Of a DNA stretch of 40,467 bases, positions 31,871 to 36,043 are shown piece by piece (position 1 is the first letter of the stretch; each line of letters starts with the position of its first letter). This DNA is from Caldilineales bacterium (GTDB lineage Bacteria > Chloroflexota > Anaerolineae > JAAEKA01): positions 1 to 40,467 of the forward strand of contig JANWYQ010000064.1 in assembly GCA_025055015.1 (NCBI GenBank), given 5' to 3'. Position numbers and translations under genes: made by a program. A model generated the notes under the pieces. That model made no database searches. It was not told where the DNA came from and was given only the letters and a program-made list of their open reading frames with translations.

Positions 31871-33885
31871 GAACGCTCGGCCTTCTTCTGCTGATCCTGG
31901 TGTTGCTGGCGGCGGCCGGCCCGACGGCCGTCGGCCAGGCGCCCTACACCACCTGGGCCATGGGCCCCGGCGGCGAGCTCTACCTGACCCAGGACGCCTA
32001 CGTGCCCTGGGCCGAGGTGGACCTGCCCATCGCCGGGGCCGAGGACATGTTCTTGGCCGAGGACGGCGCGCTCTACATCGCCGACACGGGCAACAGCCGC
32101 ATCCTCAGGCTGCGGAACTTCCAGGTGGAGGCGGAGCTGGGGGTGGGCAGCCTGCAGTCCCCCACCGGCGTGGTGGTGGACCCGGAGGGGATCGTCTACG
32201 TCGCCGACGCGGGCAAGAACACCGTGGTGGTGCTGGGCCCCGACGGCGCGGTGCTGAAGGAGTTCGGCCGGCCCAAGGAGCCCCTCTTCGGCAAGAACCG
32301 CGAGTTCCTGCCCCGCAAGCTGGCGGTGGACGTGCGCAAGAACATCTACGTGGTCAGCGAGGGGTCGGTGGACGGCCTGGCCATGCTGAACATGGACGGC
32401 GCGTTCGTGGGCTACTTCGGCGCCAACACCGCCGAGATGTCCCTGAAGATGATCCTGCAGCGCATCTTCCTGACCCGCGAGCAGCTGGCCCAGTTCGTCA
32501 AGAACGAGGCAGCGTCCCCCTCCAACGTGGCCATTGACCGCCGCTCCCTGGTCTACACCGTCACCGCGGGCACCCGCGCCGCCAAGAGCATCCGCAAGTT
32601 CACCATCGCCGGCAAGAACCTGTTCGACGACGTCTACGGCTCCACCACCTTCCGCGACGTGCAGGTGAGCGACAACGGCCTGCTGCTGGCCGTGGACGCC
32701 ACCGGCCAGATCTTCGAGTACGACCTGGACGGCAACCTGCTGTTCGTGTTCGGCGCGCCGGACAAGGGGGAGCAGCGGTTGGGCACCCTGAGCAACCCGA
32801 CCGCCATCGAGCGCAGCGGCGACGAGCTGTGGGTGCTGGACAAGGACAAGAACGCCATCGTGGTCTACCGGGTCACCGACTTTGCCCGCATGGTGCACGA
32901 GGGCGTGCGGCTGTACACCGAGGGCTTCTACCTGGACGCCCGGCCCTACTTCGAGCGGGTGCTGACCTACAACGGCCTGTTCGTGCTGGCCTACGAGGCC
33001 ATCGCCAACGCCTACTACCAGGAGCGGGACTACGACAACGCGCTGCGCTACTACCGCTACGCCGAGGACCGCAACGGCTACTCCCAGGCCTTCTGGGAGC
33101 TGCGCAACGTGGTGCTGCAGCGCTACCTAGGCAACGCGCTGCTGATCACCGCCGGCCTGTGGGTGGCCCTCAGCGTGTTCACCCGGGTGGAGCGGCGCCG
33201 CGGCTGGCTGGCGCCGGTGCACGAGCGCTGGCGGGCATGGCGCCGCTACCGCCTGGTGGACGACTTCGCCTTCATGTTCCGCTTCATCAAGCAGCCGGCG
33301 GACAGCTTCTACTACATCAAGACCAAGGAGCGCTACCTGCAGCGCGGGAGCCTGGCCTTCGCCTTCCTGCTCTACGCCTGGGTGGTGGTGGTGCGGGTTG
33401 CGTCGCTGTACGTCACCGGCTTCGTCTTCAGCCCCTACGCCAGCCCGGCGGAGATCGAGGTGGAGCGGGAGGTGGCCATGCTGGCGCTGGGCCTCTTCCT
33501 GTGGAACACGGCCAACTACCTGGTGTCGGTGATCAGCGACGGCGAGGGGCGGCTGCGGGACGTGGTGATCGGCACCGCCTACAGCCTCTTCCCCTACGCC
33601 CTCTTTGCGCTGCCCATCGCGCTGCTGTCCAACGTCCTCAGCCTCAACGAGATCTTCCTGTACACCTTCTCCAACCAGCTGGTCCTGGCGTGGGTGGCGC
33701 TGATGCTCTTCTTGATGGTCAAGGAGATCCACAACTACTCCCTGTCCGAGACGGTGCGCAACATTCTCCTCACCCTGTTCACCATGGCCATGCTGCTGCT
33801 CACCGGCTACATCCTCTACGTGTTGTTCGGCCAGGTGGTCGAGTTCGTGCGGGCCATTGCCCAGGAGGTGGGGCTCCGTGGCTAG
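31867..33885 (+). CDS. NHL-repeat, TPR-like and YIP1-domain membrane protein
   Basis: 672 residues. A signal peptide (residues 1 to about 23) is followed by an NHL-type beta-propeller at about 40-335 ([38 protein letters not shown]), a TPR-like helical stretch at about 342-417 ([20 protein letters not shown]), a membrane helix at 421-441, and from about 472 a YIP1-like domain with several helices ([20 protein letters not shown]). The propeller would face outside. No enzyme motif is seen. ATGA overlap with the upstream permease and 8-nt overlap with the DUF5696 gene tie it to glycan uptake; it may organise or tether the surface complex (inference). Confidence 0.82.
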
Positions 33886-36043
33886 GCGACGGTGGCTGTG
33901 GCGGCTGGTGATGATCGTGGCGCTGCTGCTGGGCGGCTTGGCGCCGGGCTCGGCCGCGCAGACGGCTGGACAGCCGGCCGAGATCCCCGCTGCCTACCGG
34001 CCGGCGGCCGAGAACGAGCGCTTCCAGCTCTACGTGGACTTCGACACCCTGGCCTTCAAGCTGGTGGACCGGCGCAGCGGTTACGTCTGGCACTCCGGCG
34101 TGGACGAGCTGCAGCCCGGCGACCGGCTCAACCGCGCCTGGCAGGCCTTCGCCCGCAGCGGCGTCAGCATCGAGCACCTGGACCGCAAGGCCGTGCCCAA
34201 GCGCCTCTCCCTGGCCAACGCCAACCGCACCCTCACGGTGACGCCGGCGGCCGACGGCGTGGACGCAGATCTGGCCTTCGACGACGTGGGCATCCGGCTG
34301 CGGCTGAGCCTGCGGCTGGAGGAGGACGGGGTGCGGGTGGAGGTGCCCTTCGCCTCCATCCGCGAGGAGAACCCGGACTTCCGCCTGGGCGTGCTGTACC
34401 TGTACCCCTTCCTGGGCGCCACGCGCGGGGGCAGCGTGCCCGGCTACATGCTGTTGCCCGACGGCACGGGCAGCCTGGTGCGCTTCGCCGACGCCACCAA
34501 GGCCCGCAACATGTTCTACGGCCGCTACTACGGCCCCGACCTGGGCATGGCGGCCGTTCTGCCCTTCGACCCCCAGGTCAACCGCCCCTTGCCGCTGTCC
34601 GCGCCGGTCTACGGCCTGGTGCACGGCGAGGGGCAGCACGCCATGCTCTCGGTGGTGGAGCGGGGCGCGGCCTATGCGGAGCTCCAGGTCCACCCGGCCG
34701 GCATCATCACCAACTTCAACTTCATCCACCACGCCTTCATCTACAACCAGAGCTACTTCCAGGCCACCAACCGGGCCGGCGCAGGCGTCACCACCGTCCA
34801 GGCCCAGCCCAACGCCTTCGACGTGGTGGTGCACTACCGCTTCCTGACCGGCGCCGACGCGGACTACGTGGGCCTGGCCCGCAGCTACCAGCGCTATCTG
34901 GTGGAGCGCGGGATGCTGCGCCGCCGCGACGTCGGCCGCAGCGACGCCATCGGCGTGCGGCTGGAGTTCCTGGGCGGCGATAAGGAGAAGGTGTTGCTGT
35001 GGTCCCGGTTCGTGCCCATGACCACCGTGGCCCAGATGCGGGACATCCTGGCCGACTTGGCCATCCCCCGCGCCGAGGCGGTGTACTACGGCTGGCAGCC
35101 GTCGGGCGCGTCCAGCATGCCCCCGCGGCGGCTGCGGCTGGAGCCGGCCCTGGGCGACCTGGACGACCTGCGCCGCCTGGCCCAGGAGGTGCAGGCCGGC
35201 GGCGGGCAGCTCTCCCTCTACCTGGACCCCCAGGCCGCGCTGGTGGACGAGCCGGGCTACTCCCCCCGCAACGACCTGGCCATGGCCATCACCAACGTCA
35301 ACCTGCGGGGGTTCAACCGCAACCACCCCAACTACTACCTCAGCTTTCGCCCGCTGCAGGCTCTGTACACCCCCCTGGCCGAGAGCGTGGCCGAGGCGGG
35401 CCTGGGGCTGGCGCTGGACGGGGTCAGCAACGTGGTGTACAGCGACTTCCGCAAGAGCGCGCCTATGAACCGCGAGCAGGCCATCCAGGCCCGTCGCGAG
35501 CTGCTGGCCCAGGTGGACCTGCCCCTGGCGTTCTACCGCCCCAACGACTACCTGTTCGACCTCATGCGCGCCTACTTCGACATGCCTCTGGGCGACAACG
35601 GCTACATCTACACCCACGAGGCGGTGCCCTTCCTGCCCGTGGTGTTGGCCGGCTACGTGCCCTACTACGGCACGGCCCTCAACTTCTCGCCCAACCTGCA
35701 GGAGGACCTCTTGCGCCACGCCGACTTCGGCATCTACCCCTCCTTCTTTGTGACCTACGAGGGGACCGCCGCCATGCTGAACACTGCGTCCAACTGGATC
35801 TTCACCTCCGCTTACGCCCAGTGGAAGGAGCCGATCCAGCAGGCCTATCGCTGGTTAAACGGCGTGCTGGGCCCGGTGGTCGGCCAGGAGATCGTGGGCC
35901 GCCGGCAGCTGGCCGATGGCGTCTTCGCCACCGCCTACGCCAACGGCCTGGAGGTGGTGGTGAACTACACCGACCGGCCCTTTGCGGCCGGCGGGCTGAC
36001 CGTGCCGCCCAAGGACGCGGCGCTGCGGAGGGCCGTGCCATGA
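33878..36043 (+). CDS. DUF5696-like exported protein, probable TIM-barrel glycosidase relative
   Basis: 721 residues with a signal peptide. The N-terminal half is a beta-sandwich beginning [20 protein letters not shown], like the supersandwich domain of large glycosidases; the C-terminal half has barrel-like strands, including [17 protein letters not shown] (D514, D523), [20 protein letters not shown] (D573, E581) and [12 protein letters not shown], and ends [19 protein letters not shown], a typical C-terminal beta cap. I recall such proteins as DUF5696, of unknown activity. GTG 33878 has AGGAGG 9 nt upstream; an in-frame TTG at 33857 is rejected. Overlaps both neighbours, so it is an integral part of the operon. 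A glycoside hydrolase role is inference. Confidence 0.78.

Follow-up and report, generated by a model that had tools for sequence, protein, structure and literature searches.

We analysed a 40467-nucleotide stretch of DNA from a Caldilineales bacterium of the phylum Chloroflexota (contig JANWYQ010000064.1; the whole stretch is called the window below), and in particular a gene on its forward strand that encodes a protein of the family DUF5696. This protein has the fold of glycoside hydrolase (GH) family 129, and its gene is constantly linked to the permeases and binding proteins of a putative ATP-binding cassette (ABC) importer.

The DUF5696 gene and its operon

The gene lies within an operon on the forward strand, made up of the following genes.

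22862-25243, forward: GH94 phosphorylase
25306-26907, forward: solute-binding protein SBP1, a close relative of PDB 22hh
26964-30056, forward: SBP2, a 1030-aa solute-binding protein with a long N-terminal extension
30046-30957, forward: ABC permease A, with the top mean identity among the module genes
30965-31870, forward: ABC permease B
31867-33885, forward: NHL-repeat/TPR/Yip1 membrane protein, constant partner of DUF5696
33878-36043, forward: DUF5696 protein, 721 aa, exported, GH129 fold (Pfam match, AlphaFold2 model, fold and profile searches)
36040-36930, forward: ABC permease C, overlapping the DUF5696 stop codon (PF00528 at 26.0 bits, just below the cut-off of 26.4)
36932-37870, forward: ABC permease D
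37863-39299, forward: exported PF10091 (GH144-type) enzyme, likely an endo-beta-1,2-glucanase
39310-40287, forward: LacI-family regulator

The open reading frame (ORF) of the DUF5696 protein starts with GTG at 33878 and ends with its stop codon at 36043. The encoded protein matches PF18952 (DUF5696) over residues 121-713 with an E value of 1e-158 and a score of 530.1 bits, the curated cut-off being 25.6, and covers positions 4-611 of the 612 in the profile. Coordinates, strand and family had been given correctly in a first-pass annotation made from the sequence alone. The GC content at the three codon positions (0.70/0.45/0.96) is similar to that of the other operon genes. Both neighbouring genes overlap the DUF5696 gene, NHL/TPR/Yip1 on the upstream side by 8 nt and the permease on the downstream side by 4 nt. 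The same annotation had set the gene in an operon of carbohydrate enzymes. This description does not fit, since most of the genes serve transport (two solute-binding proteins, four permeases and the NHL/TPR/Yip1 membrane protein) and the GH94 and GH144-type genes lie toward the ends. The Pfam match of SBP2 spans only about residues 620-910; the long stretch N-terminal to it matched no Pfam family at E 0.001.

With the single window protein as query, PF18952 was the sole Pfam family found up to E 10, with no PF11308, PF12905 or GH31 model. NCBIfam likewise gave no match up to E 10, and PADLOC none up to 0.001. A search for 'DUF5696' or 'PF18952' in the searchable literature found no paper, an absence that is not proven because subscription papers lie mostly outside such a search.

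Fold of the DUF5696 protein and kinship to GH129

An AlphaFold2 model of the window protein, based on 78 aligned sequences, reached a mean predicted local distance difference test (pLDDT) score of 93.8 and a predicted template modelling (pTM) score of 0.92. The model is composed of the following parts, a linking helix joining the beta domain and the barrel.

33881-33937, forward: residues 2-20, N-terminal hydrophobic helix, signal peptide or membrane anchor (model; hydropathy 1.78 at residue 10)
33995-34852, forward: residues 40-325, N-terminal beta domain of the supersandwich type (model; GH129 alignments begin at residue 40-42)
34955-35755, forward: residues 360-626, (beta/alpha)8 barrel (model)
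35891-36031, forward: residues 672-718, C-terminal beta cap (model)

The supersandwich-like start, barrel and C-terminal cap anticipated in the first-pass annotation are all seen here. When the model was compared with the PDB by Foldseek, ZgGH129 was the top match (E 1.7e-32) and NagBb the second, both of them GH129 proteins that matched over the whole length. By VIA-align, six GH129 entries scored Z 27.5-28.3 with 553-578 residues aligned, and the next row stood at Z 19.3. A comparison with GH31, GH66 and GH101 had been proposed beforehand. GH101 enzymes (EngBF and S. pneumoniae GH101) do have a related barrel and beta domain, most chains giving Foldseek E values of 1.8e-18 to 4e-17; the guess of a glycoside hydrolase fold with GH101 kinship was therefore sound, yet GH129 is closer. 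The GH101 match is the weaker one (TM score 0.45-0.49 by query length), and GH101 chains are 1100-1350 residues long. GH31 chains enter the list at rank 28 (E 2.1e-14), below GH129 and GH101, and GH31 was rejected as closest kin. GH66 was also set aside as closest kin, as no row of that name is among the 50 fold matches listed, although absence from this list is not exclusion.

In sequence, GH129 was reached by profile only, the single window protein giving no match to PDB sequences up to E 10. A profile of 20 DUF5696 proteins matched ZgGH129 at E 5.5e-15 (profile 56-469) and NagBb at E 7.3e-12 (profile 319-477). PF11308 was not among the six Pfam families that the 20 members matched up to E 1. 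Six Chloroflexota proteins (L113-L118), chosen from the weaker PF18952 matches in 400 genomes, bridge DUF5696 and GH129. These GH129-like proteins are 615-735 aa long. Five of the six score above the Pfam cut-off for PF18952 and also above that for PF11308, L117 passing the latter by 0.1 bit; L114 had no PF11308 match in the Pfam search of the six. L117 is clearly homologous to NagBb (E 4.6e-96). By their sequences the bridging proteins are likely true hydrolases. The fold is also retained in L097, a DUF5696 protein with Arg at the position of D514 (pLDDT 88.0, Z 28.6). In a tree of DUF5696 and bridging proteins, 92 DUF5696 rows lie on one side of a branch with a support of 98 in the Shimodaira-Hasegawa-like approximate likelihood ratio test (SH-aLRT). 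Beside them is L114, whose branch is very long; such branches are unsure and no claim is built on the tree. Fold and kinship were computed directly, and DUF5696 probably descends from a GH129-type hydrolase whose fold was kept. The window protein is thus akin to GH129 (NagBb, an alpha-N-acetylgalactosaminidase, and ZgGH129/DagB, a 3,6-anhydro-D-galactosidase) in its whole-length fold and profile similarity, but has no PF11308 match and, unlike GH129, belongs to an ABC transport module.

One variant of the barrel was observed in a single genus (g55), where all five sequences (L025-L029) have about 80 extra residues between barrel strand 4 and helix 4. The insertion contains two strongly hydrophobic stretches, consistent with a two-helix hairpin (hydropathy was computed for two of the five), and probably reflects one event, as it is confined to one genus. 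The corresponding loop of (beta/alpha)8 enzymes is part of the active-site face, and the barrels of g55 should hence face the membrane.

The GH129 catalytic columns in DUF5696

Three residues of the window protein are central to the question of catalysis.

35417-35419, forward: D514, which follows barrel strand 510-513 and occupies the nucleophile column of GH129 (NagBb D435; alignment via bridging proteins, model)
35534-35536, forward: Y553, which follows strand 550-552 and occupies the column where GH129 has its conserved strand-5 Glu (alignments, model)
35579-35581, forward: D568, a candidate substitute acid; the position is acid in 45/45 rows of the window's clade (alignment)

The catalysis of GH129 is covered in PMC5698469 and PMC8106489, the former giving NagBb D435 and ZgGH129 D486 as catalytic. 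Aligned through the bridging proteins, NagBb D435 falls on D514 of the window protein, and both proteins share the Asp at the end of barrel strand 4 as well as the Arg532 column. The strand-5 Glu of NagBb is E478 by counting along the alignment; we take it to be the acid/base. At this column the window protein differs, having Tyr553. The GH129-like bridging proteins keep the strand-4 Asp and the strand-5 Glu in six of six cases in a smaller alignment; in a larger one Asp is kept in 6/6 and Glu in 5/6.

Conservation was assessed in 93 DUF5696 rows, namely 45 close Chloroflexota, 35 Bacillota or Mycoplasmatota and 13 other Chloroflexota. Not one of the 93 has an acid at both 514 and 553. Position 514 is acid in 67 rows and not in the remaining 26, the acid being present in 45/45 close Chloroflexota, in 22/35 Bacillota or Mycoplasmatota (21 with Asp) and in 0/13 other Chloroflexota. 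The replacement at the catalytic columns was computed directly and, read from these alignments, the catalytic pair of GH129 is broken in DUF5696.

The first-pass annotation had named four acids, D514, D523, D573 and E581, as lying at strand ends and as possibly catalytic. For D514 this holds in both respects, the residue following strand 510-513 directly and occupying the nucleophile column. The other three are off both catalytic columns; D523 and E581 lie in loops at bridges of one or two residues, and D573 in a loop. Conservation of the set, by which the idea was to be judged, is poor: of the 93 rows, 78 have an acid at 523, 34 at 573 and 71 at 581, and only 22 have acids at all four positions. 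D523 was rejected as the catalytic acid, its column being non-acid in five of the six GH129-like proteins, most of which have a Glu one column off, so that a one-column shift is possible. An ordinary two-acid hydrolase in which D514 acts with E581 (or D573) has in its favour the place of D514 and the Asp or Glu at 581, which occurs jointly with an acid at 514 in 55/93 rows. Within the window's clade, however, 581 is acid in only 35/45 rows, the others including Ala, Gly, Gln and Thr, and together with the scarcity of acids at 573 and the failure of both positions to fall on the GH129 columns this makes such an enzyme very improbable.

Positions 514 and 568 are both acid in 45/45 close Chloroflexota, in 20/35 Bacillota or Mycoplasmatota and in 0/13 other Chloroflexota, a pattern that leaves room for a non-canonical enzyme in the window's clade. 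The protein could there be a true glycosidase or transglycosylase with beta-1,2-glucan fragments as its substrate. D514 would serve as nucleophile or base, and D568, Tyr553 (present in 45/45 close Chloroflexota) or another group would take the place of the strand-5 Glu, other clades having lost or changed the activity. Export of the protein and an operon with GH94 and GH144-type genes would suit this. The 13 other Chloroflexota count against it, because they lack the acid at 514 despite the same module core, and so does the mean identity of DUF5696, the lowest among the module genes (59.8%) and below that of the GH144 neighbour (71.2%). We regard this alternative as somewhat unlikely. In each of the three groups, conservation reaches at least 80% at the barrel residues G405, W406, R532, Y558, P584 and N602, an indication that the pocket remains in use.

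The transport module and a possible role for DUF5696

The surroundings of the gene were examined in 80 DUF5696 loci from named genomes (the best 80 of 260), which were compared with the window genes by tblastn; adjacency was scored where at least 900 bases were in view. An NHL-Yip1 gene lies directly upstream of DUF5696 in 77 of 78 loci, the exception (L052) having other ORFs there, and a permease lies directly downstream in 74/74. All eight genes, SBP1, SBP2, permeases A-D, NHL-Yip1 and DUF5696, are found together in 54 of the 56 loci that extend at least 9 kb upstream and 4 kb downstream; the other two of these 56 (L107 and L108) gave no SBP1 match by tblastn. Fourteen further stretches from other Chloroflexota lineages contain, within the limits of their contigs, the core of SBP2, permeases A-D, NHL-Yip1 and DUF5696. 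Relatives of SBP1, GH94 and GH144 occur in one of them (L131) and GH65 or GH130 relatives in none, leaving 13 of the 14 without a match to the window's four GH families, other hydrolases not having been searched for there. In L123, L127 and Butyrivibrio, NHL and Yip1 are two separate genes. The module is found in Chloroflexota, Bacillota and Mycoplasmatota.

To study co-occurrence, both queries were run against one set of 400 genomes from the window's phylum. A strong DUF5696 match (E below 1e-50) was present in 29 of them and an NHL-TPR-Yip1 match (E up to 1e-19) in 30, which include all 29. The odd genome (G308) is 69% complete and matches the NHL part only, at a contig end; in a few others (e.g. 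G273 and G274) the partner is seen only in part. With the limit set at E 0.001 the NHL-TPR-Yip1 query matched in 208/400 genomes. A gap follows the strong matches, and those listed beyond it (1.1e-12 and weaker) are mostly short matches to the NHL part within other long proteins, or further pieces of the same partner. DUF5696 thus shows, by direct computation, the constant genetic linkage to permeases and binding proteins that is expected of an accessory subunit of an ABC importer. Literature on Yip1 or NHL with ABC transporters, on GH144 with Chloroflexi and on 'Yip1 family protein' did not reveal the module by title among the papers listed, and papers found in a search for non-catalytic, hydrolase-like transporter parts concern other subjects by title.

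The enzymes next to the module vary. From 85 non-core ORFs at 16 loci, 13 or 14 were chosen by eye for a Pfam search, which identified GH43, arabinofuranosidase, GH2, GH35, GH39 and GH36 proteins; GH43 was also seen next to the module in Butyrivibrio. As the module stays constant while the enzymes change, a transport part fits better than an enzyme with a fixed substrate. On a plasmid of Paenibacillus cellulosilyticus (L137) the module adjoins a ugpC ATPase and four LLM flavin oxidoreductases; the PLSDB gene table, which is incomplete, lists 23 features and includes no glycoside hydrolase. Such a neighbourhood, like the constant coupling to NHL-Yip1 and a permease and the overlapping reading frames in the window, would also suit a scaffold or sensor that does not bind glycans and either ties NHL-Yip1 to permeases C/D or signals the supply of substrate. 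The barrel residues kept in all groups argue for use of the pocket, and we hold this alternative to be improbable.

At 77 loci, a GH144 match and D514 occur together in 47, D514 without GH144 in 16, GH144 without D514 in 6 and neither in 8. The retention of D514 in 47 of 53 loci with a GH144 match speaks for the non-canonical enzyme and the six GH144 loci without it speak against. D514 as a marker of beta-1,2-glucan loci was rejected, given these 6/53 and the 16/24 non-GH144 loci that have D514; some of the contigs are short.

Fragments of beta-1,2-glucan are the most likely cargo in the window operon. SBP2 has among its PDB matches Lin1841, the beta-1,2-gluco-oligosaccharide binding protein of the Listeria innocua SOGP cluster, which presumably follows the same logic of GH94 plus ABC importer as the window. 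The window operon differs in having two permease pairs, and we know of no DUF5696 or NHL-Yip1 in the Listeria cluster. The PF10091 neighbour matches the group of the GH144 endo-beta-1,2-glucanases (CpSGL; Chloroflexus aurantiacus SGL Chy400_4164); GH144 is no kin of DUF5696 and points only to the likely substrate. According to PMC12102758, Chy400_4164 has been used to make sophoro-oligosaccharides, and we infer that its gene sits in a matching operon.

Three other loci of the window were noted. A gene pair at 2856-4729 (reverse strand) matches the candidate defence system HEC-01 (HEC-01B, E 3e-53; HEC-01A, E 1.7e-142). At 10332-11513 (reverse strand) lies a DNA methyltransferase with a RAMA domain that matches orphan and type II methyltransferase models. 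A 944-aa fusion of a HAD-type domain and a GH65 phosphorylase is encoded at 16469-19303 (reverse strand). A GH130 gene (11583-12506) lies nearby, as do, judged by sequence only, genes for a LacI-type regulator and an ABC importer; together they form a second sugar operon on the opposite strand.

As to DUF5696 itself, we give an even chance to the reading that it is a non-catalytic, glycan-binding subunit of a compound ABC importer, derived from GH129 and serving beta-1,2-glucan fragments at this locus. Complex formation, glycan binding, hand-over and lack of catalysis are what we infer for it. Several points weigh against this reading. Acids at 514 and at the neighbouring column 554 occur together in 11/93 rows, at odds with a strictly broken pair, and a claim that no DUF5696 protein has an acid near the strand-5 column was dropped for this reason. 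In the window's clade D514, D523, R532, Y553 and N556 are invariant (45/45), as is the acid character of position 568, and such invariance is also expected of an active site. The column assignment relies on alignments through the bridging proteins, which are 17-21% identical to the window protein, because the DUF5696 profile matches to ZgGH129 and NagBb stop short of the catalytic strands 4 and 5. Finally, adjacency of genes is no proof of a complex.

If DUF5696 is such a subunit, SBP1, the large SBP2, the permease pairs A/B and C/D, NHL-TPR-Yip1 and DUF5696 would make up one compound uptake system. After export, DUF5696 would dock with NHL-Yip1 and the permeases and be kept near the membrane by these neighbours; its barrel would bind glycan outside the membrane and hand it on to the binding proteins and permeases. 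In the window, the GH144-type enzyme may cut beta-1,2-glucan, the module may import the resulting beta-1,2-gluco-oligosaccharides and the GH94 enzyme may phosphorolyse them. More tentatively, the importer may belong to a class not described so far, which combines two permease pairs with two binding proteins and has DUF5696 and NHL-TPR-Yip1 as dedicated subunits. A one-time glycoside hydrolase would then have turned into a glycan receptor that faces the membrane and supplies the channel with long oligosaccharides.

For DUF5696, a widespread family that had no known function, there is now a fold, an identified relative and a role that can be tested, probably as a working part of an importer and not just another enzyme. 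If the module is one machine, it would represent a type of ABC sugar import in which the usual parts are doubled and one subunit derives from a hydrolase. The case also serves as a warning against annotating such proteins as glycosidases from their fold alone.

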